From positions 1 to 28,442 of IMG/VR virus record IMGVR_UViG_3300037882_001016: DNA of 28,442 bases; one strand, given 5' to 3'. The translations under genes were made by a program, and so were the position numbers. Source of the stretch: a virus. Shown in pieces: positions 2,263 through 16,833 of this stretch (position 1 is its first letter; every line of letters begins with the position of its first letter). A model generated the notes under the pieces. The model searched no databases and had not been told where the DNA came from. It saw nothing but the letters and a program-made list of their open reading frames with translations.

Positions 2263-2628
2263 TTTTTTTAATAGGCCAGCATTTTCAGTGGCTTTCGGTG
2301 CGCGATAGTCCGGGTGAGACTCGGCAAAGGCGCAGATCAGCGCCCCGGCCTGTCGCCTTGCTGATGTTGGCAAACTCGCCAGGGCGTCGAATAGATCGCC
2401 CGCGCCATCGGGTGCGTGTCCTACCATCTCGTCGATGGATACACCGAAGTAGTCCGCAAGGCGCAAAACCGTGCCTACGCGAACGTCGTTGCGCTTTGTC
2501 TCGAAGATATCCCGGATCGCGGTTTCACCTAGGCCAGCGGCGATTGCCAGCGGCTTTCGCTTGATCCCGTGCATATCCATAAGGCGCGTCAGGTTCGCGC
2601 GGAATATATCAATATCGAAGTCCGTCAT
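2257..2628 (-). CDS. CI-like prophage repressor (HTH, no protease domain)
   Basis: 123 aa from ATG 2628. Residues ~8-62 form an XRE/CI helix-turn-helix domain (RANLTRLMDMHGIKRKPLA, AAGLGETAIRDIFETKRNDV, VLRLADYFGVSIDEM). The remainder is short and helical (FDALASLPTSARRQAGALICAFAES). There is no S24/LexA-type Ser-Lys peptidase domain, so induction by RecA-stimulated self-cleavage is unlikely. The gene is flanked by matching operators and divergent promoters, the classic position of a lysogeny repressor. The frame is open further upstream, but that stretch lies over the promoter region and would not be translated. No ribosome site precedes the ATG, and the predicted start of transcription is about 11 nt away, so the mRNA may be nearly leaderless, as for lambda cI. 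Confidence 0.82.
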   Translation of the reverse strand: MTDFDIDIFRANLTRLMDMHGIKRKPLAIAAGLGETAIRDIFETKRNDVRVGTVLRLADYFGVSIDEMVGHAPDGAGDLFDALASLPTSARRQAGALICAFAESHPDYRAPKATENAGLLKKV

Positions 2629-2645
2629 GGGGCTATCGTCGGCTA

Positions 2646-2674
2646 ATTTAGCCCTTACCGCATAGTCCCGACAA
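2646..2674 (-). promoter_or_regulatory. Possible repressor maintenance promoter (PRM-like)
   Basis: Minus strand TTGTCG (2674-2669), 17-bp spacer and CTAAAT (2651-2646). The predicted start is near 2639, 11 nt before the repressor ATG. The weak -35 lies beside the right operator cluster, which would fit activation by bound repressor. Match quality is modest. Confidence 0.4.
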
Positions 2675-2676
2675 AA

Positions 2677-2704
2677 CACACTTGACAGGTGTGCAATGTC
2701 ACAC
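2677..2704. promoter_or_regulatory. Right operator cluster
   Basis: GTGTG-CAATGT-CACAC at 2689-2704 matches OL1 in half-sites and spacing. It is joined on the left by an opposite-polarity palindrome CACAC-TTGACAG-GTGTG (2677-2693) that shares a half-site and covers the -35. Repressor here would shut the rightward promoter and could touch polymerase at the repressor promoter. Confidence 0.6.
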
Positions 2705-2710
2705 TTACAA
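2682..2710 (+). promoter_or_regulatory. Rightward early promoter (PR-like)
   Basis: A perfect -35 TTGACA (2682-2687), a 17-bp spacer fully occupied by the operator, and TTACAA (2705-2710) as -10. The predicted start near 2717 is only about 2 nt before the Cro-like ATG at 2719, so the transcript should be almost leaderless. Confidence 0.7.
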
Positions 2711-2718
2711 GGTGCGGC

Positions 2719-2913
2719 ATGAGCACCCTTCTTGACGATATCGAAGCCTTTCTCGGAGCGCACGAAATGTCCGCCACTCGGCTGGGCGATGATGCTTTGG
2801 GCGACCGTCATTTTGTCCGCCAGCTTCGCGCAGGCCGCAGGGTCTGGCCTGAGACTGAGGCCAAGGTGCGGCGGTTCATGGCCACATACCGGCCCGAAAG
2901 CGCAGCAGCATGA
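2719..2913 (+). CDS. Cro-like small DNA-binding protein
   Basis: 64 aa. The start is set at ATG 2719 (MSTLLDDIEAFLGAHEMS); an upstream in-frame ATG at 2689 lies inside the operator and is rejected. The pattern DIEAFLGAHEMSATRLGDDAL, then RHFVRQLRAGRRVWPETEAKV is the helix-turn-helix core of small alphaproteobacterial regulators, with a basic recognition-like segment. It is the first gene of the rightward operon, divergent from the repressor, the position and size expected for Cro. Its stop overlaps the next ATG. Confidence 0.75.
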   Translation: MSTLLDDIEAFLGAHEMSATRLGDDALGDRHFVRQLRAGRRVWPETEAKVRRFMATYRPESAAA

Positions 2914-3029
2914 TCGACGCCCTGCCTTGGCTGTTGCTGGCTGCTGGCGCTTCGGTGCTGGCTTACAAAGCCTTGTGGATTTGGGCCGCTTGGCATGATG
3001 CCGACATCTACCGGAGCGACGATCAATGA
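2910..3029 (+). CDS. Small membrane peptide (39 aa)
   Basis: ATG 2910 overlaps the Cro-like stop as ATGA, and its own stop overlaps the next ATG. The peptide starts MIDALPWLLLAAGASVLAYK, giving one hydrophobic segment (about residues 4-18 and on to Trp-rich WIWAAW), and ends in a charged tail (HDADIYRSDDQ). It is probably a single-pass inner-membrane peptide. Tight coupling on both sides supports it as a real gene; function unknown. Confidence 0.6.
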   Translation: MIDALPWLLLAAGASVLAYKALWIWAAWHDADIYRSDDQ

Positions 3030-3319
3030 GCGCGCCTGCTTGGGCCTATCGTGGCTTTCCGAACAGCAATTCGCAGCCCAGCTACGACCAGTGGCGGCAG
3101 TCCATTCTTATCGAGTTCGCCGGGGAATCCAATCCTCTCCCCGAGTCCCCCGGCGAGGCGCGCGGTGTCATGCCCGATACCGCGCGCCACCCTTTTACGG
3201 CTCGCGCAGTGGACGGCGGGACAGGACGCGGGGCTGGACCTGAAACTGGCCCCGCGTCCGATCATCAAGCGCCCTGTGGCGGCAATTTGTCTCCTTTCCA
3301 TAGCCAAGGGGATAGCTGA
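3026..3319 (+). CDS. Hypothetical protein, frame doubtful in its second half
   Basis: ATG 3026 overlaps the preceding stop by 4 bp, and the TGA overlaps the next gene's ATG. The first ~48 codons (MSAPAWAYRGFPNSNSQPSY, DQWRQSILIEF) have G/C-rich third positions like neighbouring genes. From about 3170 the codon pattern in this frame worsens, and the +1 frame (open to 3350) becomes the better one, reading LLRLAQWTAGQDAGLDLK. Either the gene has suffered a frameshift or two genes overlap here. No family is recognised in either frame. Confidence is in the first half only. Confidence 0.5.
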   Translation: MSAPAWAYRGFPNSNSQPSYDQWRQSILIEFAGESNPLPESPGEARGVMPDTARHPFTARAVDGGTGRGAGPETGPASDHQAPCGGNLSPFHSQGDS

Positions 3320-3690
3320 TGCACGGGACAAACGTCTTGCCGCTATTTAGCCGTCCGCGCGAAAAGGATTACCGCGCCGCTGTTGCGAAAATCATTCGCA
3401 CCTTGAAGGCGCAACACAATCTTTCCAATACCGAATTGGCAGAGGAAATCGGCTGTTCACCCGAAACAATCGGCAATGCCGAGAATGAGCATAACAATCT
3501 CAATCCGGTTACGTTGGGCAATATCCGCTGGCGATATGGCGCGGCGGCGGTGCGGCCATGGGATGATGCCTGCGATGCGCAGGTGAGCAGGGATTCGCCC
3601 AAGACGCTGTTCGAGCGACTGGACGATACATTGTCCGAATTGGACGCGATCCGCCGGGAAATTGGCGAGGCAGGAGTGCGGGCGATATGA
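3319..3690 (+). CDS. XRE-family transcriptional regulator
   Basis: 123 aa. Residues ~20-65 form a helix-turn-helix (IIRTLKAQHNLSNTELAEEI, GCSPETIGNAENEHNNLNPV), with the TELAEEIGCSPETI core typical of XRE/Cro proteins. The C-terminus (TLFERLDDTLSELDAIRREI) is helical and may drive dimerisation. Start and stop both overlap neighbours (TGATG and ATGA). It lies in the early rightward operon, so it could act as a delayed-early regulator in the place of CII; that is inference from position. Confidence 0.75.
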   Translation: MHGTNVLPLFSRPREKDYRAAVAKIIRTLKAQHNLSNTELAEEIGCSPETIGNAENEHNNLNPVTLGNIRWRYGAAAVRPWDDACDAQVSRDSPKTLFERLDDTLSELDAIRREIGEAGVRAI

Positions 3691-4103
3691 CACTCGCCGC
3701 GCCTTGCCTGCCGCTTCGCATTGCGAACGACCATCCGGTATTCGCGGTCAATCTGCCGCTGCCGCCATCGGCCAATTCGCTATTCGTCAACCGCACTGAC
3801 GGGCGCGCGAAGGCCAAAGGTTACAAGGCATGGATTGATGAGGCGCGCTATCATCTGATCACGCAATGGCGCGCGGCGGGCAAACCGGAATGGCCGAAGT
3901 CCATCCCCATGCAGGTTATCATCCGCCTGGGCATTGAAGGCCGCATTCGCGATGCTGGCAACTGCCTCAAAGCTATCGAGGATGCGCTCGTGCGCGAGCT
4001 GCCTATCCCGGATGATCGCTGGAACGACCGCATCCTGATCGAGCGCGACGAAAGCATCCCCGGCTTGGCCCGCGTGATCGTGGCTGCGCTCGATACGACT
4101 TAG
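3687..4103 (+). CDS. rusA: RusA-family Holliday-junction resolvase
   Basis: 138 aa, near the usual ~120-140. It opens with the family pattern FAVNLPLPPSANSLFVNR (about residues 19-36, substrate-binding N-terminus) and contains the metal-site region R88-D89-A-G-N92-C-L-K95-A-I-E-D99-ALV and DDRW (109-112). RusA cuts four-way junctions with paired acidic residues. Against E. coli RusA by eye, D70 and K76 match D89 and K95, while D72 falls on G91; related phage proteins often have this GN variant. It probably resolves recombination or replication intermediates before packaging, together with the recombinase encoded next. ATG overlaps the stop of the regulator gene. Confidence 0.82.
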   Translation: MTLAAPCLPLRIANDHPVFAVNLPLPPSANSLFVNRTDGRAKAKGYKAWIDEARYHLITQWRAAGKPEWPKSIPMQVIIRLGIEGRIRDAGNCLKAIEDALVRELPIPDDRWNDRILIERDESIPGLARVIVAALDTT

Positions 4104-4231
4104 CGAAATCAGGGGAGAGGGCGTTTGCCGTGAGGCGCGCACGGAATTTGGAAACCTGCCGGTCAGCCTCTCCCCGCCGAACTTCCGAACTGACACCGCT
4201 TCCGAAATCCTGACTGACAAAGGAACCGAAA
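4104..4231 (+). promoter_or_regulatory. Structured leader with TGACTGACA box
   Basis: A gap between rusA and the next gene in an otherwise overlapping operon. GGGGAGAGG (4112-4120) can pair with CCTCTCCCC (4167-4175). Inside that loop CCGTG-N7-CACGG (4128-4144) forms a small hairpin. The box TGACTGACA lies at 4211-4219, 12 nt before the ATG, followed by AAAGGAACC as ribosome site. The same 9-mer precedes three further genes downstream. No U-run follows the hairpins, so a simple terminator is unlikely. Confidence 0.55.
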
Positions 4232-4696
4232 ATGACCCTTCAAGAACTCTTTGCCGCTTCACCCGGCGAGATCGATGCTCTGCCAATCGAGACATTGGCA
4301 GGCATGAAAGATGCTGCTGATGGGGCGATGGAAGATGCGCAGAAAGTGCAGGCAATCCTGCATGGCGCGCTTGTTCGCCGCTATGCCGCTGGCCTGAATG
4401 ATACCGGCACGCACCACCGCGCCGATGGCGACTTCGATATCAAGATCACCGTGCCGAAGAATGTGGCATGGGATCAGGAGCGCCTTGCCGACGCGCAGGC
4501 GACCATTCGCAACGAATGGGAAGCCGACCCCGCCGAATATATCGACGCCAAGTTGACCGTTTCGGAAACGAAATACGGCGCATGGCCCGCGCAAATCCGC
4601 GACCTGCTCACCCCCGCCCGCACGGTCAAGCCCGGCAAGCCGAAGTTTGAAATTACATTGATCGCGGATGCGGCAACGCAACGGGATGCGGCATAA
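4232..4696 (+). CDS. Conserved phage protein paired with Sak4-type ATPase
   Basis: 154 aa, soluble, without a catalytic motif that I can name. An N-terminal helical part (residues ~1-55, DALPIETLAGMKDAADGAME) leads to a central segment (DGDFDIKITVPKNVAWDQERL) and YIDAKLTVSETKYGAWPAQI, ending in PARTVKPGKPKFEI. I recognise this layout from proteins encoded next to Sak4-like ATPases in alphaproteobacterial phages, where it has no assigned function; a recombination-accessory role is inferred. The start has AAGGAACC upstream, and its TAA overlaps the ATG of the ATPase gene by one base. Confidence 0.65.
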   Translation: MTLQELFAASPGEIDALPIETLAGMKDAADGAMEDAQKVQAILHGALVRRYAAGLNDTGTHHRADGDFDIKITVPKNVAWDQERLADAQATIRNEWEADPAEYIDAKLTVSETKYGAWPAQIRDLLTPARTVKPGKPKFEITLIADAATQRDAA

Positions 4697-5490
4697 TGGC
4701 AATCTCCCTCTCCAGCCTCAACCGGCTATCATCGCCCAAGCCACCCCGCATCATCATCTATGGCCCGCACGGCATCGGCAAGAATACATTCCTCGCCAGC
4801 GCGCCTAAGCCGGTGCTGATCAATATCGAGGACGGGCACCCGTCCGGCTGCGCAATTGACAGCTTCCCCAAGGCGGCAACCTTTGCCGACGTGATGGACG
4901 CAATGTCTGCCCTCTATTCCGAGGATCACGACTTCGAGACACTTGGCGTTGACAGTCTCGACTGGCTCGAACCGCTGGTCTGGGCAGAGACGATCCGGCG
5001 CAACAATGAGGCCAACCCGTCAAAGCAGTGGAACTCAATCGAGGACGCTGGCTATGGACGCGGTTACGTCGCGACGCTCGATGTGTGGCGCGACTATCTC
5101 GATGCGATCAACGCGCTGCGCGATGACAAGGGTATGGCGATCATTCAGACCGCGCATAGCGAGGTCAAGCGCTTCGACAGCCCGGAAACGGAGCCATTCG
5201 ACCGCTACCAGATCAAGCTGGACAAGCGCGCATCCGCCTTGCTCCAGGAACATGCCGATATGGTGCTGTTCGCCAACTTCAAGACTTCGGTGACGAAGAC
5301 CGATGTCGGCATGAAGAAGGTGGCGCGCGGCATCGGCGCGGGCACCCGCGCACTCTATACCGAAGAGCGCCCCGCATTCCTCGCCAAAAACCGGCACAAC
5401 CTGCCACCCGAATTGCCGCTGTCATGGGACGCACTCAGCGCCGCCGTGGCCGCGTCAAGCGAAGCCGCAACACTGAAAGAGGCGGCATAG
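4696..5490 (+). CDS. Sak4-like RecA-fold recombinase ATPase
   Basis: 264 aa. A P-loop lies at G23-P-H-G-I-G-K29-N30-T31 and a Walker B-like strand ends at D86 (ETLGVDSLDWLE). Further family features are AIIQTAHSEVKRF and LLQEHADMVLFANF. Sak4 proteins are phage single-strand annealing/strand-exchange proteins with a RecA-like core that act with a phage SSB. The residue after the Walker A lysine is Asn, where Ser/Thr normally binds Mg2+; codon AAT is one base from AGT (Ser). The gene overlaps its upstream neighbour and is followed by the SSB gene, which fits a recombination module. Confidence 0.78.
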   Translation: MAISLSSLNRLSSPKPPRIIIYGPHGIGKNTFLASAPKPVLINIEDGHPSGCAIDSFPKAATFADVMDAMSALYSEDHDFETLGVDSLDWLEPLVWAETIRRNNEANPSKQWNSIEDAGYGRGYVATLDVWRDYLDAINALRDDKGMAIIQTAHSEVKRFDSPETEPFDRYQIKLDKRASALLQEHADMVLFANFKTSVTKTDVGMKKVARGIGAGTRALYTEERPAFLAKNRHNLPPELPLSWDALSAAVAASSEAATLKEAA

Positions 5491-5557
5491 CCGCGAGAGC
5501 GGCACACTCGCCGCGCGAGCGGCAAACAACCATGACTGACAGAAAAGGAATACGATC
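5490..5557 (+). promoter_or_regulatory. Leader with twin GNRA hairpins and TGACTGACA box
   Basis: Two hairpins with identical GCCGC/GCGGC stems follow the ATPase stop: loop GAGA (5490-5503) and loop GCGA (5510-5523). Both loops are GNRA tetraloops. The box TGACTGACA is at 5533-5541, and AAAAGGAA (5544-5551) is the ribosome site for the ATG at 5558. The sequence element recurs before three other genes in this operon. Confidence 0.6.
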
Positions 5558-6094
5558 ATGGCATTTTTGGGCGGAACATTCGACGCAAACCAAGTCGAAC
5601 CGCAGGGCGATTATACGCCAATCACACCCGGCGAATACAAGGTCCATATCCTCTCATCCGAGATGGTGGAAACGACCAAGCGTGATGGGCACATGCTCAA
5701 GCTGGAACTCGAAATCATCGAAGGCGAGAGCGCAGGCCGAAAGCTGTTTGACCGGCTCAATCTGGACAACCCGAACGCGCAGGCAGTCGAAATCGCGCAG
5801 CGCCAGCTTTCGGCCATATGCCACGCGACGGGCAAATTGACCGTTCAGGATAGCGAGGAACTGCACGGTATCCCGATGCTCGCCGTGGTCAAGGTTGACC
5901 CGCCACGCACCGGCAGGGACGGCAAGGAATACGGCGCGTCCAATTCGATCAAGGCTTACAAGCCGATTGGCAGTGCGGCCCCGGCGACTGGCGGCTTTGG
6001 CGCTGGCACATCGGCCCCGGCCCGATCCGGCTTCACTCCATCGGCATCGGCTGGCACTGCCAAGTCGCCGCCGTGGAAGTCCAAGGCCGCGTAA
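5558..6094 (+). CDS. DUF669-family ssDNA-binding protein
   Basis: 178 aa. Residues ~1-125 match the DUF669 pattern: GDYTPITPGEYKVHI, then HMLKLELEIIEGESAGRKLF, NPNAQAVEIAQRQLSAIC and LHGIPMLAVVKV. DUF669 proteins are regarded as phage single-strand-binding proteins. The last ~40 residues are low-complexity Gly/Ala/Pro/Ser, ending PPWKSKAA; they lack the acidic tip of host SSB. It sits between the Sak4-like ATPase and a nuclease, and SSB and Sak4 usually work as partners. It has its own leader with a strong ribosome site, consistent with a protein needed in large amounts. Confidence 0.78.
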   Translation: MAFLGGTFDANQVEPQGDYTPITPGEYKVHILSSEMVETTKRDGHMLKLELEIIEGESAGRKLFDRLNLDNPNAQAVEIAQRQLSAICHATGKLTVQDSEELHGIPMLAVVKVDPPRTGRDGKEYGASNSIKAYKPIGSAAPATGGFGAGTSAPARSGFTPSASAGTAKSPPWKSKAA

Positions 6095-6171
6095 TCCGAA
6101 TGAGGCGCGGGCGGTAGTTTTCGACGCCGCCGCCCGCGCCGGTTCCCTGACTGACAAAAGAGAGGCAACCG
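6095..6171 (+). promoter_or_regulatory. Leader with 11-bp hairpin and TGACTGACA box
   Basis: GGCGCGGGCGG (6104-6114) is the exact reverse complement of CCGCCCGCGCC (6130-6140), with a 15-nt loop containing TTTT. The TGACTGACA box follows at 6148-6156, then AGAGAGG as ribosome site, with ATG at 6172. The hairpin is strong but is not followed by a U-run. Confidence 0.6.
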
Positions 6172-7140
6172 ATGGTGGCCCTACCAGATACCCCATGCCC
6201 TACGCTAGCCCATGCCGACGCGGCACTGGAAAGCGCGCAGGAACGCCGCAGGCGCGGCTATCTCGGCATGTCAGCCATCGGCGCGGAATGCGAGCGTGCC
6301 CTCTGGTATGGCTTCCGATGGGCCGCTCGGGCGAAATTCGACGCGCTCACTCTCAAGCGATTCGCGGACGGCCATGCAAGCGAGGCTGTGGCAATCGATC
6401 GGCTCAAAGCAACGCCGGAACTCATCGTCCATGACATCGACGAAGATGGCGAGCAATTCGGCTTCAAGGATATTGGCGGGCACTTCTCCGGCCATATGGA
6501 CGGGGTTTGCCTTGGGCTGATCCAGGCACCGAAAACATGGCACGTTCTCGAAATCAAGTCGTCCGAGAAATGGGACGCACTCGACAAGGCCAAGCGCAAA
6601 GTAGGCGAGAAGAACGCGCTCGCCGAATGGAATGCGGTCTATTACGCGCAGGCCGTCCTCTACATGGACTATGCCGGGCTGGACCGTCATTACATGGTCT
6701 GCACATCGCCCGGCGCGCGGCGCTGGACCGCCGTTCGCACAAATGCCGATCCGGTATTCGCTGGCATCCTGAAAGCCAAGGCGGAGCGCATCATATTCAA
6801 TGACCATGCGCCCAAGCGCATTGGCGACGCCACCAGCTTCGCCTGCAAATGGTGCGACTGGAAAGCCATCTGCCACGAAGGCGAGGCGGCAGAGCGCAAT
6901 TGCCGGACGTGCCTGCATAGCGAGCCGCTGCGCGAGATCGTGCCGGGCGTGGGCAATTGGCAATGCGCGCACCACGGACATGGACTGTCCAAGGCCGATC
7001 AAGAGCGCGGCTGCCCCGATCACCGATATCTGCCCAGCCTTGTGCCGGGCGATCAAACCGACGCCGACGAAACCGGCGTCACATACCGAATGGCTGACGG
7101 GTCCACTTGGACTGATCGCGGCCCCGATCTGCAATCCTGA
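6172..7140 (+). CDS. Cas4/RecB-like PD-(D/E)XK nuclease with Fe-S type cysteines
   Basis: 322 aa. The nuclease core is visible as H108-M-D110-G and V-L-E127-I-K129. One cysteine near the N-terminus (C40, AECERALWY) and three after the core (C225-K-W-C228-D-W-K-A-I-C234) reproduce the four-cysteine iron-sulfur pattern of Cas4 and AddB. A further C-terminal knuckle follows (NCRTC, WQCAHH, GCPDH), probably binding zinc. Such enzymes are 5' or 3' exonucleases acting on DNA ends and would supply single strands to the Sak4-like recombinase. The gene has its own TGACTGACA leader. Polarity of the nuclease cannot be told from sequence. Confidence 0.75.
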   Translation: MVALPDTPCPTLAHADAALESAQERRRRGYLGMSAIGAECERALWYGFRWAARAKFDALTLKRFADGHASEAVAIDRLKATPELIVHDIDEDGEQFGFKDIGGHFSGHMDGVCLGLIQAPKTWHVLEIKSSEKWDALDKAKRKVGEKNALAEWNAVYYAQAVLYMDYAGLDRHYMVCTSPGARRWTAVRTNADPVFAGILKAKAERIIFNDHAPKRIGDATSFACKWCDWKAICHEGEAAERNCRTCLHSEPLREIVPGVGNWQCAHHGHGLSKADQERGCPDHRYLPSLVPGDQTDADETGVTYRMADGSTWTDRGPDLQS

Positions 7141-7172
7141 TTTCCCCTGACTGACACAACCCGGAAGGAACC
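7141..7172 (+). promoter_or_regulatory. Short leader with TGACTGACA box
   Basis: The box TGACTGACA (7148-7156) starts 7 nt after the nuclease stop and is followed by GGAAGGAA as ribosome site, with ATG at 7173. No hairpin is visible here, so the box recurs independently of the stem-loops found in the other three leaders. Confidence 0.6.
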
Positions 7173-8384
7173 ATGACTATGGCAAGTGCTGCCAAAAAGA
7201 CGAAGCCACAAGCTGCGGAAGTAACCACGCATGTTAACGATCCGTCAACCGATGCACCGGGGCTTCCGCTCGAAAAGGTGGACGGGCTGCGGATCGAAGC
7301 CAAGGCGCTGGCGGCGGCGATGAAAAACGCGGCAGCAATCGTTCAGTCCGCCGCGATCATCCCCATTCTGGCCAATGCCCGGCTGCTCGCCGATGGCTCA
7401 GTGCTGCAAATCGTAACGTCGGATATGGACACTGAATACCGGCAAGACTTGCCGCTCAAATTCGAGTGCGCCCTTGCTGTCACGGTTGACGCCAAGCGCC
7501 TTGCCGCCCTCGCCAATTCCGTCGCGCCAGATGCTGTTATCTCCATGACGGCCAAGGATGGCCGGTTGGCAGTGAGTGCCGGGCGCTCGCGCTGGCAACT
7601 GCCGACGATATCGCCGGACGATTATCCGATCATGCCATTTTCAGATCCCGCCGCCACCACTGAAATTGGCGGAAAGGCACTGGCTGATGCAATTGGCCGG
7701 ATTGCATGGGTCGATAGCAACGAGAAAACGCAAGCATATTTGGCTGGCGCTCTGTTCCATAGCGTCGATAACCGGCTCTATCTGGCCAGTGCAAACGGCA
7801 AGAGTATGGGGCTGTCTGCAACCGCCGCGAAGCTTATCGGCGGCACCTTGGCGGCGATGGTCCCGGACAAGTATCTGGGCACGCTGGCGGGTCTTGCGGC
7901 GGTGCATGATGAGCCGGTATCGCTCGCATGGGATGATCGCAAAATCCGCGCGCAGATTGGCGACGTGGTATTGACCGGCAAGCTGCTCGAAAACAGCTTC
8001 CCGGATTATACCCGCGTGATCCCCGCGCCCGACGCCAACCCCGTCACATTCACGCCGGACAACATCCTTGCCGCATTGAAGCGCGTGGCCATTGTTGCCG
8101 ACGAGCGGACGCGGTGCATCACCGTCAAACGGTGCGAGGGCGCAATCACGCTTTCGGCATCATCGGGCGATGGCGGTGAAGCTGGCGAGGATGTCTTGTC
8201 CGATGCCGAGGCAGGCCATGCGACCGGGATCAATGGCCAGATATTCGCAGCAATGATCGCAGCAATCGGCGGCGATACAATCGAGATGCACCAGGCCGAT
8301 GGCGACAAAGCCATGATGTTCCGCCGCGCAGTCGATGACGGGACGCTCGCCATCATCATGCCCATGCGAATCCGGGAGGCATGA
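7173..8384 (+). CDS. dnaN: Phage-encoded DNA polymerase III beta subunit (sliding clamp)
   Basis: 403 aa. The DnaN three-domain pattern is evident: IIPILANARLLADGSVLQIV (domain I), SRWQLPTISPDDYPIMPF, KLLENSFPDYTRVIP (domain II) and a C-terminal end AIIMPMRIREA, close to the MPMR(L/V) end of bacterial clamps. The first ~35 residues (rich in Lys, Ala, Pro and Thr) are an extension absent from bacterial DnaN, and the middle of domain III has an acidic insertion (DGGEAGEDVLSDAEAG). The protein would encircle DNA and tether host Pol III or phage enzymes. No polymerase gene is seen in the window, so it presumably works with host polymerase. It follows its own TGACTGACA leader. Confidence 0.88.
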   Translation: MTMASAAKKTKPQAAEVTTHVNDPSTDAPGLPLEKVDGLRIEAKALAAAMKNAAAIVQSAAIIPILANARLLADGSVLQIVTSDMDTEYRQDLPLKFECALAVTVDAKRLAALANSVAPDAVISMTAKDGRLAVSAGRSRWQLPTISPDDYPIMPFSDPAATTEIGGKALADAIGRIAWVDSNEKTQAYLAGALFHSVDNRLYLASANGKSMGLSATAAKLIGGTLAAMVPDKYLGTLAGLAAVHDEPVSLAWDDRKIRAQIGDVVLTGKLLENSFPDYTRVIPAPDANPVTFTPDNILAALKRVAIVADERTRCITVKRCEGAITLSASSGDGGEAGEDVLSDAEAGHATGINGQIFAAMIAAIGGDTIEMHQADGDKAMMFRRAVDDGTLAIIMPMRIREA

Positions 8385-8387
8385 GAG

Positions 8388-8732
8388 ATGGCTATCGAAC
8401 TCAACGCCTATGGCATCGACTGCCCGCATTGCGGCGAGGAAGTCGAATTCGTCGTCAACGATATCGAAGGGCTGGCACACGATATCGAGGAAGAAGTCCG
8501 GGATGCAGAGCGCAGCGCGCGAGACGAAGCTGAACGCGAATTCGATGGGATGGTTGATCCCGAGGATTTGCCAATCCAGCCCCGCACAATCCACGATCTT
8601 GCCGCCGCAATCGAGCGCGGGGACACGGGCGAGGCGCGGCTGTTGCTTGGCCGTATCGCCGATGATCTTGGCCTTGAACACAAGAGCGCAGCCGAGATTG
8701 GCCGCTTCTCCAATCTGGCGAGGGCGGCATGA
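8388..8732 (+). CDS. Hypothetical protein with CPHCG zinc knuckle
   Basis: 114 aa. An N-terminal C-P-H-C-G motif (residues 12-16) is followed by an acidic, helical region (IEEEVRDAERSARDEAEREF) and an Ala/Gly-rich C-terminus. With only one CxxC pair visible, zinc binding would need dimerisation or distant ligands. The gene starts 3 nt after the clamp stop and its own stop overlaps the helicase ATG, so it belongs to the same transcript. Function unknown. Confidence 0.6.
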   Translation: MAIELNAYGIDCPHCGEEVEFVVNDIEGLAHDIEEEVRDAERSARDEAEREFDGMVDPEDLPIQPRTIHDLAAAIERGDTGEARLLLGRIADDLGLEHKSAAEIGRFSNLARAA

Positions 8733-10126
8733 CTGGAAACGATGCATATGCCGCGTTCCTCGCGCGCAAGGCCATGACCGATCCCATGACCGGACTGGCC
8801 ACCGTTCCCGCCCTGCCCGATGCCATGTTCCCGCATCAGCGCGACATCACCGCATGGGCCTTGCGCCGGGGGCGCGCAGCCCTGTTTGCAGGCACCGGCC
8901 TTGGCAAGTCGTTCATGGAACTGGCGTGGGCGCAAGCTGTTGCCAGCGAGACGGGCCGCAACATCCTGCACCTTGCCCCGCTCGCTGTCTCTGCCCAGCT
9001 CGCACGCGAGGCCGATAAATTCGGCATCCCGGCGCGCGTTGCCGCCAAGCAATCCGAGTGCGGCCCCGGCATAAACATCACGAACTATCAGAAACTCGAT
9101 CACTTCGACCTGTCGCAATTTGGCGGTGTCATTCTGGATGAAAGCAGCATCCTGAAAAACGTGGACGGGCACTATCGATCGCGGCTGATCGAAGCCTGCC
9201 ACGCCATCCCGTTCCGGCTCGCTGCGACCGCCACCCCGGCCCCGAATGACTTCATGGAATTGGGCAATCACGCCGAGTTTCTGGGCATCATGTCCTATAC
9301 CGACATGCTCGCCACATTCTTCACCCATGACGGCGGGGACACGCAGAAATGGCGCTTGAAGGGCCATGCTGAAAACGAATTTTGGAAGTGGATGGCAAGT
9401 TGGGCAGTGATGCTGCGCAAGCCGTCCGATCTTGGGTATCCCAATGATGGCTATGACCTGCCACCGCTCAATTATGTGCAGCACAAAGTTGAAGTCGATA
9501 CCGGCCCAAACTATGAGACTGGCCAGCTTTTCGCGCTGCACGCCGCCACTATGCAGGAACGCATATCGGCACGGCGGAGCACCGTTGAAGCGCGGTGCGC
9601 GCTTGCCGCCTCGATCACACCTATGGACGTGCCCTATGTCTGGTGGTGCAATCTCAACAGTGAAGCCGAATTGCTGGCCAAGGCCATCCCCGGCGCGGTC
9701 AATCTGCACGGCGGTCTAAAGGACAGCGAGAAAGAGCGCATCCTGATCGATTTCAGTGACGGCAAAATCTCGCACCTGATTACCAAGCCATCGCTCGCCG
9801 GATTCGGGATGAACTGGCAGCATTGCCATCGCACCGGCTTCGTCGGTCTGAATGACAGCTTCGAGCAATTCTATCAGGCCGTCCGGCGCTTCTGGCGCTT
9901 TGGCCAGACCATGCCCGTCGATGTTGATATCGTCGCTGCGGAAACCGAAGGCGCGACCGTCGCCAATATCCGCCGCAAGGAGGCCGATGCAGACCGCATG
10001 GCCGCTGCAATGGTCCGGCACATGGCCGATCTATCCAGCCAAGCCGTGCGCGGCATGGCCCGCGAAGTGCCTGCCTACAATCCGACAATCCCCGTCCAAC
10101 TTCCCCGCTTTCTGGAGGCCGCATAA
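8729..10126 (+). CDS. SNF2-type superfamily 2 helicase/translocase
   Basis: 465 aa. Helicase motif I is A-G-T-G-L-G-K60-S, motif II is V-I-L-D137-E138-S-S, motif III is AATATPAPN, and the C-terminal RecA domain ends with the arginine-finger region FYQAVRRFWRFGQ. DESS in place of DEAH and the QAVRR(F/I)WR(I/F)GQ motif are typical of SNF2-like phage helicases. These proteins are commonly encoded next to a DNA methyltransferase, as here: the stop overlaps the next ATG by one base. The role may be in replication, recombination or removing proteins from DNA. Confidence 0.8.
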   Translation: MTGNDAYAAFLARKAMTDPMTGLATVPALPDAMFPHQRDITAWALRRGRAALFAGTGLGKSFMELAWAQAVASETGRNILHLAPLAVSAQLAREADKFGIPARVAAKQSECGPGINITNYQKLDHFDLSQFGGVILDESSILKNVDGHYRSRLIEACHAIPFRLAATATPAPNDFMELGNHAEFLGIMSYTDMLATFFTHDGGDTQKWRLKGHAENEFWKWMASWAVMLRKPSDLGYPNDGYDLPPLNYVQHKVEVDTGPNYETGQLFALHAATMQERISARRSTVEARCALAASITPMDVPYVWWCNLNSEAELLAKAIPGAVNLHGGLKDSEKERILIDFSDGKISHLITKPSLAGFGMNWQHCHRTGFVGLNDSFEQFYQAVRRFWRFGQTMPVDVDIVAAETEGATVANIRRKEADADRMAAAMVRHMADLSSQAVRGMAREVPAYNPTIPVQLPRFLEAA

Positions 10127-11100
10127 TGTCCAATTCTCCCGCAATCTCAGGCGTGAAATGCGTCGATCAAGTCATCATGCCGGACTACGCCATATACCAG
10201 GGCGATAGCTGCGAAGTGATCCGCGCCATCCCCGGCGATAGTATCCACTTCGGCGTCCACTCGCCGCCATTCGAGGGGCTTTACAAATTCAGCAACTTCG
10301 ACCGCGACATGTCAAATAACGAAGGCGCGCAATTCTGGGAGCATTACCAATTCCTGATCTCGGAATTGCTGCGCGTCACCATGCCCGGACGGCTCCACTC
10401 CGTTCACTGCATGCAGCTTCCCATGTCGAAAATCCGGCACGGCAACATCGGCATGCGCGACTTTCGCGGCGAGATTATCCGGGCATACGAGGACGCTGGC
10501 TGGATATTCCATAGCGAGGTCTGCATATGGAAAGATCCAGTCGTCGCGCAACAGCGCACGAAGTCCATCCGGCTCCTGCACAAGCAGATCGTCAAAGACA
10601 GCACGATCAGCGGGCAGGGCCTTGCCGATTTCATCGTCACATTCCGCAAGCCGGGCGAAAACCCGGAGCCGGTATCGGGATGCTTTAGCCAGTGGATTGG
10701 CGAAGGCGACGGGCCGGACCCCGCCAAATACACCACGGCAACCGATGGCCGGAACTGGTATTCAATCGAGGTCTGGCAGCGATACGCCTCTCCGGTCTGG
10801 TCTGACATCAATCAGACCCGCACCCTGCAATATCGCGGCGGGCGCGATGCCAAGGATGAGCAGCACATATCGCCGCTGCAACTCGACGTTATCGAGCGGT
10901 GCATCGATCTATGGAGCAACCCCGGCGATACCGTCCTCACTCCGTTTCTCGGCATTGGCAGCGAAGTCTATGCCGCCGTCGAGATGGGCCGCAAGGGCAT
11001 CGGGATCGAACTCAAGCCCAGCTACTTCGCGCAGGCCAAGCGCAATCTTGAAGCCGCTGGCATGGCCGCAAAGCCGATTTTTTCGGGAGAGGCGGCGTGA
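10126..11100 (+). CDS. Orphan site-specific DNA methyltransferase (beta-class order)
   Basis: 324 aa. Catalytic motif IV S46-P-P-F49-E-G comes near the N-terminus, and the SAM-binding motif I F274-L-G-I-G-S comes near the C-terminus, followed by GIGIELKPSYFAQAKRNL; this is the permuted beta order. SPP(F/Y) is seen in N4-cytosine and some N6-adenine enzymes, so the target base is uncertain. No restriction endonuclease is coded nearby, so it is likely a phage self-protection or regulatory methylase. It overlaps the SNF2 helicase upstream and the cupin gene downstream. Confidence 0.85.
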   Translation: MSNSPAISGVKCVDQVIMPDYAIYQGDSCEVIRAIPGDSIHFGVHSPPFEGLYKFSNFDRDMSNNEGAQFWEHYQFLISELLRVTMPGRLHSVHCMQLPMSKIRHGNIGMRDFRGEIIRAYEDAGWIFHSEVCIWKDPVVAQQRTKSIRLLHKQIVKDSTISGQGLADFIVTFRKPGENPEPVSGCFSQWIGEGDGPDPAKYTTATDGRNWYSIEVWQRYASPVWSDINQTRTLQYRGGRDAKDEQHISPLQLDVIERCIDLWSNPGDTVLTPFLGIGSEVYAAVEMGRKGIGIELKPSYFAQAKRNLEAAGMAAKPIFSGEAA

Positions 11101-11564
11101 CTTACAAACCACCCGCAAACCTGCCAGATATGCAGGAATGGGCGCGAGGCGTCATGGCGTCCCGCCCGCCTGATTTTGTCATCGGTGAAGGGTATTTGAA
11201 CCGCTGGCATATCATCCCGCGCAATGACTTCGGCAACGTCTATCTACACGATTTCGGGCGCAGCGATGACGATAGGGCCTTGCACGATCACCCGTGGCGC
11301 AATGTCAGCTATGTGATCGAAGGGCGGTATATCGAGCATACTCCAGACGGCCAGATCACCCGCAATGCCGGGGACGTGGTGACGCGACTAGCGACCGCCA
11401 TGCATCGCATCGAATTATTCCCCGGCGAGCGCGCGACAACCCTGTTTTTCACCGGACCAAAGGTGCGCGAATGGGGCTTCGATTGCCCACAAGGCTGGCG
11501 GCACTGGCGGGACTTCACTGCTGGCGAGAATGGCGAGATTGTCGGCAGGGGCTGTGGGGAATGA
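11097..11564 (+). CDS. Small cupin-fold protein
   Basis: 155 aa, GTG start at 11097 overlapping the methyltransferase stop (GTGA). The cupin signature is L-H-D-H-P-W-R-N-V-S-Y-V-I-E-G-R-Y-I-E, followed ~30 residues on by T-A-M-H-R-I-E-L, giving a plausible three-His metal site. Phage cupins of this kind are widespread, but their substrate is unknown. Sitting between a methyltransferase and a helicase it could modify a nucleotide or small molecule, or be purely structural; there is no direct evidence. Its stop overlaps the next ATG. Confidence 0.7.
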   Translation: MTYKPPANLPDMQEWARGVMASRPPDFVIGEGYLNRWHIIPRNDFGNVYLHDFGRSDDDRALHDHPWRNVSYVIEGRYIEHTPDGQITRNAGDVVTRLATAMHRIELFPGERATTLFFTGPKVREWGFDCPQGWRHWRDFTAGENGEIVGRGCGE

Positions 11565-13189
11565 CACTCCAACTCCGTCCATATCAGGAAAAGGCCCTAG
11601 CGGACTTGTGGCAGTGGTTTTGCGACCGCGACGGCAACCCGCTTGTCGTTCTGCCAACGGGCGCGGGCAAGAGCCTTGTCATCGCCGAGTGGTGCAAGCT
11701 GGTATTCAATACCGATCCCGGCGCGTGCATCCTCGTGGTGACGCACGTTCGGGAACTTGTCAGCCAGAATGCCGCCGAGCTTGTCGGCCTGTGGCCGGAA
11801 GCGCCGTGGGGCGTCTATTCGGCTGGCCTGAACCGGCGCGATATCGGCGCGGCTCTCATGTTCGCATCAATCCAGTCTATTCACAAGAAGGCGTTCAAAC
11901 TGCCGCGCCGGGTCGATATGGTGCTGATCGATGAGGCGCACCTGGTCAGCCCTACCGACACGACGATGTATCGTAAGTTTCTGGCCGATCTCAAAACGAT
12001 CAACCCGGCGCTCAAAATCATCGGCATGACCGCCACGCCGTTCCGGCTCGATAGCGGGCGGCTGCACGAAGGCGAAGGGGCGATGTTCGATGGCATCGCC
12101 CATGAAACCGGCGTGCGCGAACTGATCGATGATGGATATCTGACACCGCCCGTCACCCGCCCGCGCCAGACTGCCGATGCGCAAATATCGGTTGCAGGCG
12201 TCGGCACGCGCGGCGGCGAGTTCATCGCAGCGCAACTCGAAAGCGCGGCGCTCGATCCCGATGTAGTGGACGCCATCGCCAATCGGATTGTCGCAGCCGG
12301 GCAGGATCGCAAGGGCTGGCTGATATTCGGATGCACGGTCAAGCATTGCGAGGCATTGGCTGAGGCCCTGAACGCACGCGGCTATGCCGGGCGCGGCGTA
12401 TTCGGCGATACCGATCAAAACGAGGGCAAGGGCACGCGGGATCGCGTGATCGCTGACTTCAAGGCGCAGCGGCTCCGCTTTCTCGTCTCGCAAGGGGTGC
12501 TGACAACCGGGTTTAATGCTCGGCATGTTGACCTTATCGCGCTGGCGCGGCCCACGAAATCGACCGGGCTATACGTGCAAATGATAGGCAGGGGCACACG
12601 GCTTGCGCCCGGCAAGGATGACTGCCTTGTTCTGGACTTCGGCGGAAACATCGCGCGGCACGGCCCATTCGATGATCCGTGGATACCGGAGAAGAAGGGC
12701 AAGGGCGAAGGGACTGCGCCATACAAGGAATGCCCGGAATGCGAGACGGCTTGCGCCACCATGACGCGCATCTGCCCGTCATGCGGTTTCGAGTTTCCCC
12801 CGCCAGAGCGCGTCGTCGATATCATCCCCGCGCAAAAGGCCATCCTCTCCGTTGAACCGGAATGGCTGGACGTGGCTGAGGCAAATTATCGCAGGCACGA
12901 AAAGGCTGGCTCGCCACCATCCATGCGCGCCGAATACCGCGTCGGCATGACCTATCAGCGCGAGTGGATATGCTTCGAGCATCAAGGATACGCGCGCACG
13001 AAGGCGGAAAGCTGGTGGCTGCGACGCGCAGCCGCACCCGTCCCGCGCACCGTCGATGAGGCAATCGCGAGGGCCGCTGAGATCGCCGTTCCCAGCCATA
13101 TCAGGGTCAAGCGTAGCGGCAAATACGATGAGATCACCGCGTTCAAATTCGAGCCGCCAGCCAATCAGGAAAGGAATATCGCAGCATGA
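11561..13189 (+). CDS. RadD-like DEAD/DEAH helicase with zinc ribbon
   Basis: 542 aa from ATG 11561, chosen for the ATGA overlap with the cupin gene; the frame is open further upstream but over cupin coding sequence. Motif I is P-T-G-A-G-K37-S, motif II D124-E-A-H127, motif III GMTATPF and motif VI QMIGRGTRLAPG. After the helicase core a four-Cys ribbon follows (CPECETACATMTRICPSCGF), as in E. coli RadD, which helps recombination by working with RecA and SSB. The C-terminal ~140 residues are an extra domain with unknown role. It is probably a replication/recombination helicase of the phage. Confidence 0.8.
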   Translation: MTLQLRPYQEKALADLWQWFCDRDGNPLVVLPTGAGKSLVIAEWCKLVFNTDPGACILVVTHVRELVSQNAAELVGLWPEAPWGVYSAGLNRRDIGAALMFASIQSIHKKAFKLPRRVDMVLIDEAHLVSPTDTTMYRKFLADLKTINPALKIIGMTATPFRLDSGRLHEGEGAMFDGIAHETGVRELIDDGYLTPPVTRPRQTADAQISVAGVGTRGGEFIAAQLESAALDPDVVDAIANRIVAAGQDRKGWLIFGCTVKHCEALAEALNARGYAGRGVFGDTDQNEGKGTRDRVIADFKAQRLRFLVSQGVLTTGFNARHVDLIALARPTKSTGLYVQMIGRGTRLAPGKDDCLVLDFGGNIARHGPFDDPWIPEKKGKGEGTAPYKECPECETACATMTRICPSCGFEFPPPERVVDIIPAQKAILSVEPEWLDVAEANYRRHEKAGSPPSMRAEYRVGMTYQREWICFEHQGYARTKAESWWLRRAAAPVPRTVDEAIARAAEIAVPSHIRVKRSGKYDEITAFKFEPPANQERNIAA

Positions 13190-13338
13190 GCGACGCGAAG
13201 CCCCCCAAATATGATCCCGCCAAATATCGCGCCAAGTATCTGCCAAACCAGCTTGAATTGGCCCGGCGCAAGGTGGCCGCATTGGAAAACGAGGCACGCC
13301 GTTATGGCATGAATGAATTGCTGGAGCGCAACACATGA
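13186..13338 (+). CDS. Small basic protein (50 aa)
   Basis: ATG 13186 overlaps the helicase stop, and its TGA overlaps the next ATG. The sequence (MSDAKPPKYDPAKYRAKYLP, then a helix NQLELARRKVAALENEARRY) is basic at the N-terminus and probably coiled-coil at the C-terminus. There is no recognised family. Overlaps on both sides and G/C-rich third positions argue that it is a real gene. Confidence 0.6.
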   Translation: MSDAKPPKYDPAKYRAKYLPNQLELARRKVAALENEARRYGMNELLERNT

Positions 13339-13559
13339 ACAGCTACACCGCCCCACAATCGGCCATGATGACGCTCAATCAGACAGAGCAGGCCGCGCTC
13401 TATGCGTCGAGTGAGGCCATCGGCGGATATCTCGAAAGCATCGGCAAAACCGACATGTCAGACATGACTGAAATGGAATGGCTCGGCTTTATCGCCCATG
13501 CATACAACATCATGTCGAACGAAATCCGGATCATCGTCGATAGCGATGTCCCGTTCTAA
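13335..13559 (+). CDS. Hypothetical 74-aa phage protein
   Basis: Sequence contains AIGGYLESIGKTDMSDMTEM and EWLGFIAHAYNIMSNEIR. The YLxxIGKTDMxxMTxxEW pattern is familiar from small phage proteins of unknown role in this part of replication operons. It is all-helical by appearance and acidic. Start and stop overlap the neighbours. Confidence 0.6.
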   Translation: MNSYTAPQSAMMTLNQTEQAALYASSEAIGGYLESIGKTDMSDMTEMEWLGFIAHAYNIMSNEIRIIVDSDVPF

Positions 13560-13930
13560 TGGTTGCTCTGGTCAAATCCAAAGCCCGGCCATTAATCAGT
13601 GCGCTATACGATGCGCAGCAAGGTATTTGCCCGGCGTGCGGACGCAAGATGCCACCGCTTGGCGATCCCGCCCTGCCCCATCTGTTGCCATCTATCGATC
13701 ATGTCATCGCGCGGGCCAAGGGCGGTGGCGATCACATCGGAAACATGATCGCAATGCATCGCAAGTGCAACAGCACCAAAAGTGATCGGATGCCAACCGG
13801 ATGCGAAATCGTCTGGCATCATCTCGTATTGGCCCGATTGGAAATGCACCCTGCCGATATGCAGTGGCGTGACCCATCGTTTCAAAATCCCGCCATGGCA
13901 GAGGCTTTGGCGCTTGCAGGAATTCGTTAA
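13559..13930 (+). CDS. HNH endonuclease
   Basis: 123 aa. The HNH core is clear: C24-P-A-C27 then S-I-D47-H48-V-I, H-I-G-N62-M and H67-R-K-C70-N, with the two CxxC-type pairs forming the structural zinc site. It is compact, with a short N-terminal basic stretch and a C-terminal helical tail. It lies between replication genes in the rightward operon, one base overlap on each side, rather than beside the terminase where phage HNH packaging nucleases usually are. Possible roles are homing, host DNA degradation or replication. Confidence 0.82.
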   Translation: MVALVKSKARPLISALYDAQQGICPACGRKMPPLGDPALPHLLPSIDHVIARAKGGGDHIGNMIAMHRKCNSTKSDRMPTGCEIVWHHLVLARLEMHPADMQWRDPSFQNPAMAEALALAGIR

Positions 13931-16320
13931 TGTCCGCTCTCTCATTCAAGCCTGATATCGCGCGCCAGCTTTTCGACAATCTCGATCAGATCCATCTGGT
14001 TTACATCCATCCCAATGGCATCGGAGTGCGCGGCCATGACTTCGGAACCGATGCAAATGCCGCACTAAAGGGTGCGCAAGCAGCCAATGCCAATGGCTAT
14101 AACGTCTATTGGACGGTCAATCACGTCCGGCCCGGACTTCACACAAAGCCGAGCAAGGCAGATATTCGCTCCGCCCGATTTGTGCATGTGGACATTGACC
14201 CGCCAAAATCAGGTGGCGCGTTCAACAAGGGCGAGATCACCGCCGCGCTACTCGAAATAGATCAGCCGCCCAGCTTCGTGATCGACAGTGGCGGCGGGCT
14301 GCAAGCCTTCTGGCGGCTCGATGGGCCATGCGCCAACCTCGCATCAATCGAGGCGATCAACATTCAGGCGCGCGACTGGTTTGACGCCGACGCATGCCAG
14401 AATATCGACCGGCTCATGCGCGTTCCCGGCTCCGTCAACTGGCCGGACAAGAAAAAGATCGCGCGGGGCCGCACCCCCAAGCTCGCCACATGGGCCAGCG
14501 AGGATGACGGCTTGGTCTATGAGCCCGAGGAACTGGCCGCAGGCTTCCCGCCCGCCAATCCAACCGTTTCCAAAATGGAAACAGTTGCCGTCAACATTCC
14601 CGCCGATATCGAGATGGTGACACCAGACAGCCTTGGCCTGTCATCCCTTGACCCGATCCGCCTCGCCATTGAGACACCGCCCGGATACGACAGCAGCGGC
14701 GATGGGCTGGCCGCTGCGCGCCTCATGGCCAACGCGGGGCACTCCGACGCGGCAATCATGGGCACCCTGCTCAATCCCGCCAATACCGTATCCGCTCACT
14801 TCCTCGCGCAGCGTGATCCGCGCCGCGCAGCCGCCCGCGCAATCCAGCTCGTCCGGCAAGACAGCCCGCAAGAGGGCGAGACGCTGCATGCGCCGGTCAT
14901 GTCGGATGAGCAGTGGAACGCCTTCGTTGCCAACTGCAAGGCCAAGGTGCGCAGCGCAATGGTGCCAGCGGCATTGCGCGAGGATGATGGCGAGGGCGAT
15001 ATCGGGATCACGATATCGGAATACGAAGGGCCGGAGCGGCGGGCAGATACGCGCGATCCGCAATGGCTGGCCGATCTTGGAGACGGCACGCTTGCCGCAT
15101 TCGTGCGCCACGTCATCGCAGTTGCACCATCCCCACAGCCTTGGCTTACCCTTGGCGCGGCCCTCGCCATGTTCGGAGCCGCTGCAGGACGCCGCTATGC
15201 CGGGCCAACCGACCTGCGCACGAATATCTATTCCATCGGCATAGCCAGGAGCGGCTCAGGAAAGGACTATCCTTTGCGCGCCGCAACCCGCCTACTGATC
15301 GACGCAGGATTGGCTAATCATGTTGGCGGGTCAAAGATAGCATCCGGGTCCGGCCTCATCACCGCAGTTACCCGTAACCCGTCCATATTCTTCCCGCTGG
15401 ACGAAGTCGGGTTTCTCATCGCTGCCGCCGCAGACCGAAAGCGCAGCCCCAAGCATATCGTCGAGGTCATGGATACCTTGACCGAATTCTACCCCATCGC
15501 GAACAGCACATTCCTTGGCACAGCATATGCCAATGACAAGGAGAAGCCGCGCGAAGTCATAGAGCAGCCATGCCTATGCCTTTTCGGCGTCACCACGCCG
15601 CGCATATTCTGGGGGTCGCTTTCAAGCGCAAACATGGAGGATGGCTCACTGGCTCGGATGATCATTTTCGAGAGCGAGAATGACTATCCAGACCTGCAAC
15701 ACGATATTGCAGCCGTCCCCATGCCCGATCACCTGATAGAAGCGACAAAGGCAATCTCGCGCGGTGCAGAGGGACACAACCCCTTCCCGCTAGGCAACAG
15801 CGCCAACGTCACGCCAAAGCCCTACATGGTGCCATACGCCGATACAGAGGCCGAGCAAGTGGCGCGCGATATGCGAGAAACGCAGCTTGCCATGCAGCGG
15901 AATAATCAAAACGAACAAGTGTCAGGGATCATTGGGCGGCTTGCCGAAAACGCATTCAAGATCGCCCTGATCAAATCTATCACCGATTGCCCCGCATCCC
16001 CAATGATCGCAACTCGCGATCTCGAATGGGGCATGATGATATCCCGCATATCAGTCGAAGCACTCATGCGCGCCGCAGAAGATCGAGTGGCTGACAGCGA
16101 GCATGAAACCATCGTCAAGCGTGTCATGCGCATCATCTCCGAAGCCGGAAGCGCCGGGATCGACGGGACCAAACTCAGCCGCAAGACACAATTCCTTGAT
16201 CGCCGCAAACGGGCAGACATTATCGCTGGCATGATCGAGGCTGGTATGGTTCGCGCCATGAAAATTCCAAAGGCCGACAAGGGTGGACCGGAAACCACCA
16301 TCTATTTCGACATTGCGTGA
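13930..16320 (+). CDS. Primase-helicase: RepB-type primase domain plus DUF3987-like ATPase
   Basis: 796 aa. The N-terminal third carries an archaeo-eukaryotic-type primase core: R-F-V-H-V-D88-I-D90-P-P, then FVIDSGGGLQAFWRL and NIDRLMRVPGSVNWPDKKK. The C-terminal half is a P-loop ATPase, with Walker A A-R-S-G-S-G-K445-D446 and Walker B F-F-P-L-D491-E492; I recall GKD as common in this phage family. Together this looks like a self-sufficient initiator that primes and unwinds DNA at the phage origin. It is the last gene before the terminator at 16369 and lies beside an AT-rich repeat region that may be its origin. Confidence 0.82.
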   Translation: MSALSFKPDIARQLFDNLDQIHLVYIHPNGIGVRGHDFGTDANAALKGAQAANANGYNVYWTVNHVRPGLHTKPSKADIRSARFVHVDIDPPKSGGAFNKGEITAALLEIDQPPSFVIDSGGGLQAFWRLDGPCANLASIEAINIQARDWFDADACQNIDRLMRVPGSVNWPDKKKIARGRTPKLATWASEDDGLVYEPEELAAGFPPANPTVSKMETVAVNIPADIEMVTPDSLGLSSLDPIRLAIETPPGYDSSGDGLAAARLMANAGHSDAAIMGTLLNPANTVSAHFLAQRDPRRAAARAIQLVRQDSPQEGETLHAPVMSDEQWNAFVANCKAKVRSAMVPAALREDDGEGDIGITISEYEGPERRADTRDPQWLADLGDGTLAAFVRHVIAVAPSPQPWLTLGAALAMFGAAAGRRYAGPTDLRTNIYSIGIARSGSGKDYPLRAATRLLIDAGLANHVGGSKIASGSGLITAVTRNPSIFFPLDEVGFLIAAAADRKRSPKHIVEVMDTLTEFYPIANSTFLGTAYANDKEKPREVIEQPCLCLFGVTTPRIFWGSLSSANMEDGSLARMIIFESENDYPDLQHDIAAVPMPDHLIEATKAISRGAEGHNPFPLGNSANVTPKPYMVPYADTEAEQVARDMRETQLAMQRNNQNEQVSGIIGRLAENAFKIALIKSITDCPASPMIATRDLEWGMMISRISVEALMRAAEDRVADSEHETIVKRVMRIISEAGSAGIDGTKLSRKTQFLDRRKRADIIAGMIEAGMVRAMKIPKADKGGPETTIYFDIA

Positions 16321-16368
16321 AACTCAAATTCAAACCTCACTTCAATGGGTAAATTCAAGTCCTGAAAT

Positions 16369-16390
16369 CCGCAGAAAACTGCGGTTTTTT
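16369..16390 (+). terminator. Rho-independent terminator of the rightward early operon
   Basis: CCGCAG-AAAA-CTGCGG followed directly by TTTTTT, 48 bp after the primase stop. Six-pair stem, four-base loop and a U-run of six make a canonical terminator. Confidence 0.88.
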
Positions 16391-16393
16391 GGG

Positions 16394-16493
16394 TTAATTC
16401 AAAAATTCAATGCGCCGCCGTATATAAAGGGGGGTATGGGTAAGGTGGAAGATACAGGGTATATACCATATATATATTGAATTATTGAATTAA
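16394..16493. repeat. 18-bp inverted repeat in an AT-rich island; candidate origin
   Basis: TTAATTCAAAAATTCAAT (16394-16411) pairs with ATTGAATTATTGAATTAA (16476-16493) with one mismatch in 18, separated by 64 bp. Each arm is itself two copies of ATTCAA/TTGAAT eight bases apart. The centre holds a perfect palindrome GGTATATACC (16458-16467) and runs of TATA. The low GC content contrasts strongly with the surrounding genes. Being next to the primase-helicase gene, it is a good candidate for the replication origin or an initiator-binding site. Confidence 0.55.
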
Positions 16494-16528
16494 CCTATCA
16501 AACCCGCACAAATCCGCCATTTTCTGAT

Positions 16529-16550
16529 ATTGAACTGAGATTGAACTCAG
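16529..16550 (+). repeat. Tandem 11-bp iteron-like repeat
   Basis: ATTGAACTGAG and ATTGAACTCAG lie directly head to tail, differing at one base, and share the ATTGAA core with the inverted repeat just upstream. Further ATTCAA/TTCAAT copies lie at 16328, 16341 and 16353. The cluster looks like initiator-binding iterons or an operator array. Confidence 0.5.
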
Positions 16551-16575
16551 AGTGAATTAAAGAGGAAGTCCAGCC

Positions 16576-16752
16576 ATGCCAAAAAATCAATCTCGCCAAG
16601 CCGAACTTGCCAAACTGATCGATCAAATGTGGATTGGATGCGATGCGCTCTACTGCTCACATATGGGGAGCGAAAGCCAGACCATCGTATGGAAACAAGC
16701 CCGCGATGCACGCGACAAGGCAATCGCATTGATCAACAAACCCGATCGATAG
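16576..16752 (+). CDS. Small hypothetical protein (58 aa)
   Basis: ATG 16576 has a strong AGAGGAAG ribosome site upstream. The peptide starts MPKNQSRQAELAKLIDQMWI, contains CDALYC and ends with a basic helix (WKQARDARDKAIALINKPDR). It is the first gene after the AT-rich region. No family is recognised; the size and basic helices would allow DNA binding, but this is not shown. Confidence 0.55.
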   Translation: MPKNQSRQAELAKLIDQMWIGCDALYCSHMGSESQTIVWKQARDARDKAIALINKPDR

Positions 16753-16758
16753 GCCACC

Positions 16759-16787
16759 TTGACGATACCGCCGCCAATCCGCTATCT
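16759..16787 (+). promoter_or_regulatory. Possible late promoter
   Basis: TTGACG (16759-16764), 17-bp spacer and CTATCT (16782-16787), just upstream of the packaging genes and in a short non-coding gap. The -35 has five of six consensus bases and the -10 is modest. It would serve the gene at 16834 and the terminase operon. Confidence 0.35.
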
Positions 16788-16833
16788 ATGCCCATGACGA
16801 AAAGGTTCCACGGTCCGAAGCCGAGGAACGCAT

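Follow-up and report, generated by a model that had tools for sequence, protein, structure and literature searches.

Why does one short sequence recur, always in the same orientation, before four genes of a single phage operon? The window analysed here, a stretch of 28,442 nt (IMG/VR virus record IMGVR_UViG_3300037882_001016, positions 1 to 28,442), contains four exact copies of the 9-mer TGACTGACA, hereafter the box, all of them on the + strand and each in the leader of a different gene (Table 1). The original prediction held that the 9-mer occurs nowhere else, and a search of the whole window indeed returned no further exact copy on either strand outside the four leaders; 100 shuffles contained a mean of 0.06 copies and at most 2, compared with the about 0.1 copies originally estimated. 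Boxes 1-4 end 12, 16, 15 and 16 nt, respectively, before the start codons, which agrees with the 12-16 nt initially reported, and the identities proposed for the genes served, namely the Sak4 partner, SSB, nuclease and sliding clamp, held up as well. The boxed genes are also distinguished by their spacing. Only 4 of the 16 gene junctions in the operon (3026-16320) have an intergenic gap of more than 3 nt, and these are the junctions preceding the four boxed genes, bearing out the claim that such genes are almost alone in not overlapping their neighbours. The box is thus present at 4/4 gapped junctions and 0/12 others (Fisher p 0.0005).

Table 1. Genes, boxes and RNA features of the Sak4 module (window coordinates)
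Feature	Position	Strand	Remarks
Structured RNA, rusA to Sak4-partner gene	4112..4175	+	Just upstream of box 1; conserved
Box 1 (TGACTGACA)	4211..4219	+	Leader of the Sak4-partner gene; ribosome site AAGGA (4220-4224) directly after
Sak4 partner, DUF7173 / phrog_2480	4232..4696	+	Precedes the Sak4 gene; boxed
Sak4 gene	4696..5490	+	Overlaps neighbour; without box, an internal contrast
Box 2 (TGACTGACA)	5533..5541	+	Leader of the SSB gene; ribosome site AAAAGGA (5543-5549)
SSB, DUF669	5558..6094	+	Boxed
Hairpin, 12 bp, G+C-rich, SSB-nuclease gap	6104..6140	+	Just before box 3; conserved
Box 3 (TGACTGACA)	6148..6156	+	Leader of the nuclease gene; ribosome site GAGAGG (6160-6165)
Nuclease, Cas4-domain exonuclease, phrog_1990	6172..7140	+	Boxed
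Box 4 (TGACTGACA)	7148..7156	+	Leader of the sliding-clamp gene; ribosome site AAGGA (7165-7169)
Sliding clamp, DnaN-like, DNA polymerase processivity factor, phrog_947	7173..8384	+	Boxed

Absence of the box from close relatives that keep the genes had been named in advance as the observation that would speak against a common function. Starting from 35 IMG/VR loci found with the nuclease, a sampling that was later widened, we found the box in many relatives, close and distant alike, ahead of the orthologues of the Sak4-partner, SSB and nuclease genes, and in one of them (L001) also before the clamp gene. The box was kept in these orthologous leaders although the proteins are only about 50-75% identical. 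Scanning IMG/VR for the box followed, at loose spacing, by a ribosome site and ATG retrieved 33 stretches versus 7 for a scrambled box, most of the 33 preceding SSB, nuclease or Sak4-partner genes, with protein identity down to about 46-55%. Among non-redundant leaders, the exact box is present in 13/18 for the nuclease, 9/18 for the Sak4 partner and 13/35 for the SSB, and the identity of the same genes at fourfold-degenerate sites is 49%, 49% and 44%, respectively. Judged by these comparisons, the box is conserved far beyond neutral sites, and the shuffles, the scrambled-box scan and the conservation across relatives rule out a chance origin.

The relatives also refine the definition of the element. 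The 9-mer as first described is real, but the element is slightly longer, usually opening with CC(CC), and its final base is variable: the consensus reads CC(CC)TGACTGAC(A/G), with the last position sometimes T or C, placed directly or a few nt 5' of AAAGGA. In the relatives the box is always in sense orientation and lies after the stop codon of the upstream gene and ahead of the Shine-Dalgarno (SD) site, 0 to about 13 nt from the latter and 13-19 nt before most start codons, a distance that reaches 24 nt, with 2-4 copies. On the nuclease tree the exact box requires a minimum of three changes, for which the simplest account is a single origin and erosion throughout two clades. The eroded clades (L046/L091 and the L009-L017 group) retain the genes, and their leaders retain fragments such as CCCCTGACTGAA. 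Because these two clades eroded the box yet kept the genes, the box is dispensable in at least some members.

The same tree bears on the notion that the boxes are module-boundary sequences, that is, short identical stretches serving recombinational gene exchange and kept by exchange rather than by function. Their location at gene boundaries of the Sak4 recombination module would fit, as would the cassette of clamp, helicase and methyltransferase between the nuclease and a second helicase (window 7173-11564), which is present here and in L001 and absent from most relatives: despite the absence of the cassette elsewhere, its clamp gene carries its own box. However, other gapped boundaries are devoid of boxes, three changes on the nuclease tree amount to vertical maintenance, and 8-12 nt is very short for homology, making this explanation highly improbable.

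In the 45- and 52-kb relatives, copies of the box are essentially confined to leaders. All three copies of CTGACTGAC are located at module leaders in OM868076 (L036), a complete record and one of two 45-kb relatives, as are 3/3 copies in the other, from IMG/VR (G006), and 2/2 copies in a 52-kb relative are likewise at leaders; the shorter TGACTGAC has one extra copy away from leaders in G006. In the compared regions of OM868076, the box precedes 3/16 genes with a gap of at least 10 nt, exactly those of the module, and is therefore no generic spacer or general feature of gapped genes. Nor is it a habit of the host ribosome, which is ruled out by the rarity of the pattern: 398 genomes of Sphingomonadaceae, the host family inferred from prophage contigs in Sphingomonadaceae assemblies, contain only six matches to box, SD and ATG, two of them within one prophage of this phage family. 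Since host genes lack the box, the element belongs to the phage and not to the host translation system. The box is real, exclusively sense, leader-specific and restricted to phages.

OM868076 is labelled as a Synechococcus phage, yet its module and box match those of Sphingomonadaceae phages and prophages, and the host label may be wrong. A non-coding region of the same genome (41740-41990) contains many CTAACCGAC / GTCGGTTAG repeats, possible iterons of a replication origin. The window itself has a repetitive stretch of GAAGCTGCTGCCAAA-type units at its end (1-477).

At which level might the box act? Promoter-like sites (-35/-10, sigma-70) numbered 3 in the region 2500-17500, against 6.4 in shuffles, and none was found near any box on the + strand of this region. 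A promoter or terminator has no support, and promoter-like sites were not above chance. Another DNA-level possibility is a stoperator-like operator, at which a phage repressor would bind asymmetric intergenic boxes and block transcription elongation in the prophage. The box is indeed asymmetric, intergenic, present in several copies and oriented one way along transcription, and OM868076 is temperate, with annotated cI and integrase. We consider such an operator unlikely, however, given that the boxes are limited to the space just before the ribosome sites of one module, that no promoters accompany them and that the cI/early (immunity) region of OM868076 contains no copy within one mismatch. 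The position, the lack of promoter-like sites and the absence from the OM868076 immunity region speak for the RNA level; similarly, position, sense orientation, lack of promoters and the presence of one box per leader favour translational over transcriptional control.

At the RNA level, the box does not appear to be part of a fold. Folding of 41 leaders was not above that of shuffles (mean z 0.08), with a mean unpaired probability of the box of 0.67. A hairpin translational operator, in which a conserved stem-loop would include the box or the SD, is at odds with leaders that are not unusually folded, and the recurrent CCU:AGG pairing with the SD is too weak, the near-invariance of the SD also placing it beyond the reach of covariation. 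The box is therefore best seen as a putative, predominantly single-stranded recognition sequence. Since it lies immediately 5' of the SD, the box might engage in extended pairing with the 16S rRNA of the host upstream of the anti-SD, which would boost initiation. Yet the longest match of the box complement to the 16S rRNA of E. coli, from which that of the sphingomonad host may differ, is 6 nt, no better than for scrambled boxes, and host genes do not use the box, which leaves this pairing with very little probability.

The original prediction also pointed out that the box supplies stop codons in two frames. Every exact copy contains two TGA codons and invariably follows the upstream gene, and TGACTGA could conceivably serve as insulation, stopping stray ribosomes in two frames before they reach the ribosome site. 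However, relatives do not preserve the frame of these codons with respect to the upstream gene: because the length of the C-tract varies (TAA-CCC-, TAA-CCCC-, TAA-CCCCC-TGACTGA), the TGA codons close no constant set of frames. A three-frame stop device is rejected on the same grounds. Furthermore, TAA/TAG substitutes were not seen, the flanking CC and trailing AC are conserved though they add no stop, and most gapped genes have no box, so that insulation appears decidedly improbable as the reason for its conservation.

The boxes are accompanied by structured elements. One is a 62-64-nt RNA, located between rusA and the Sak4-partner gene and composed of a 9-bp outer stem, a GNRA-capped second stem and a short third stem. 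In an alignment of 21 distinct sequences, standard pairs fill 97.4% of pair cells and 12/18 pairs have changed on both sides, with a covariation score of 0.516 versus 0.132 in shuffles; an alignment not fitted to the model gave 98.0% and 9/18. A covariance model located a single copy of the RNA in each phage, invariably just ahead of the Sak4-partner gene (in L099 with an E value of 0.27, at the same position), and a collection-wide pattern scan recovered proper copies only there. It was found in 1/150 Sphingomonadaceae genomes, in a prophage. Rfam returned no match in the window at E up to 1, and in the relatives only chance-level matches at E up to 10, far below gathering scores. From its sequence variation, the element is a well-supported candidate structured RNA without an Rfam match, and is possibly more novel than the box. 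As the RNA persists in phages with an eroded Sak4-partner box, the two are separable. The hairpin in the gap between the SSB and nuclease genes is a perfect 10-12-bp stem in relatives, with 18 different 5' arms in 30 leaders; it is kept by compensating sequence in all box-bearing relatives, 8-16 nt upstream of the box where one is present, and lacks a clear T-run. Two small inverted repeats in the gap between sak4 and the SSB gene (5490-5523, +; GCCGC-GAGA-GCGGC and GCCGC-GCGA-GCGGC) were not seen in relatives.

The layout formed by the structured RNA and the nuclease-leader hairpin is compatible with cistron-wise RNA processing, whereby a nuclease would cut at the box, or the box would mark the new 5' end of a cistron after the hairpin, tuning mRNA lifetime. 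The conserved GC-rich hairpin of the nuclease leaders and the structured RNA upstream of the first leader would suit this scheme. By contrast, in relatives the box of the SSB leader follows the stop codon directly, without a hairpin, and, to our knowledge, the box resembles no known RNase E or RNase III site. Processing thus strikes us as an unlikely role.

Taken together, the sequence evidence points to translational control as the most likely role of the box. The original prediction of a shared control element is upheld insofar as a conserved box precedes orthologous genes, but the control itself and the protein or small-RNA factor exerting it are putative. The reading that we favour, albeit by no wide measure of confidence, makes the box a start-associated element of mRNA leaders, specific to phages, that would act at the RNA level, would probably be bound by a factor and would thereby set translation of the recombination module. 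The short, predominantly single-stranded CC(C)UGACUGAC(A/G), just 5' of the SD, would mark the separately initiated genes of this module (the Sak4 partner, SSB, nuclease and, here, also the clamp) and would affect translation initiation. The UGAC-UGAC unit beside the ribosome site may be bound by a factor, the simplest candidate being an RNA-binding protein encoded by the phage, and this factor might then adjust ribosome loading on all boxed genes together, thereby setting the level of recombination proteins. Having been kept over long evolution and being absent from host genes, the box probably controls the timing or strength of phage protein production, and the latter absence favours a phage-specific factor. 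Comparison of gene sets between box-positive and box-poor relatives revealed no replication or regulatory gene present in all positives and missing from the box-poor ones; this would leave a core module protein or a host factor, or no factor at all. Persistence throughout the family makes the SSB and the Sak4 partner candidates. More tentatively, and with appreciably less confidence, one could envision a new post-transcriptional regulon of Sphingomonadaceae phages, in which a phage RNA-binding protein reads the UGAC-UGAC boxes and coordinates the module, with the structured RNA at the head of the group as a second, linked control element. Transcription is the usual level at which phages coordinate their replication genes, whereas the box points to coordination at translation, as suggested but unproven for the start-associated sequences of cluster K mycobacteriophages; should a phage protein bind the boxes, it would be a new sequence-specific RNA-binding regulator.

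In the literature searched, neither a comparable box nor a comparable RNA was described for sphingomonad phages, but partly similar systems are known elsewhere. In phage T4, RegA exerts translational control over multiple genes and gp32 controls its own synthesis; like the role proposed for the box, this involves phage proteins acting on initiation regions of replication genes, the SSB gene included, although for RegA targets, unlike here, we know of no strict common box. The stoperators of cluster A mycobacteriophages are similarly asymmetric, oriented, intergenic repeats, but are DNA sites bound by the repressor and occur also at early promoters, whereas the position of the box is tied to ribosome sites and the surroundings of the OM868076 immunity region are free of copies. 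The nearest described element is the Start-Associated Sequence (SAS) of cluster K mycobacteriophages (Pope et al. 2011, PMC3203893; surveyed again in PMC12699233), GGGATAGGAGCCC, which is present in 11-19 copies 3-7 bp from the start codon and contains the SD (PMC3203893), and the function of which is unproven but thought to be translational (PMC3203893, PMC12699233). Both are short asymmetric repeats found in one orientation (almost always so for SAS) before the starts of non-structural genes, conserved across divergent relatives and absent from the host. The box differs in sequence (CCTGACTGACA; TGACTGACA does not match GGGATAGGAGCCC within two mismatches), in its greater distance from the start (12-16 nt, at most 24), with the SD standing apart on its 3' side, in its copy number of 2-4 and in its restriction to one recombination module of Sphingomonadaceae phages. 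It is hence no member of the SAS family, but may work in a like manner.
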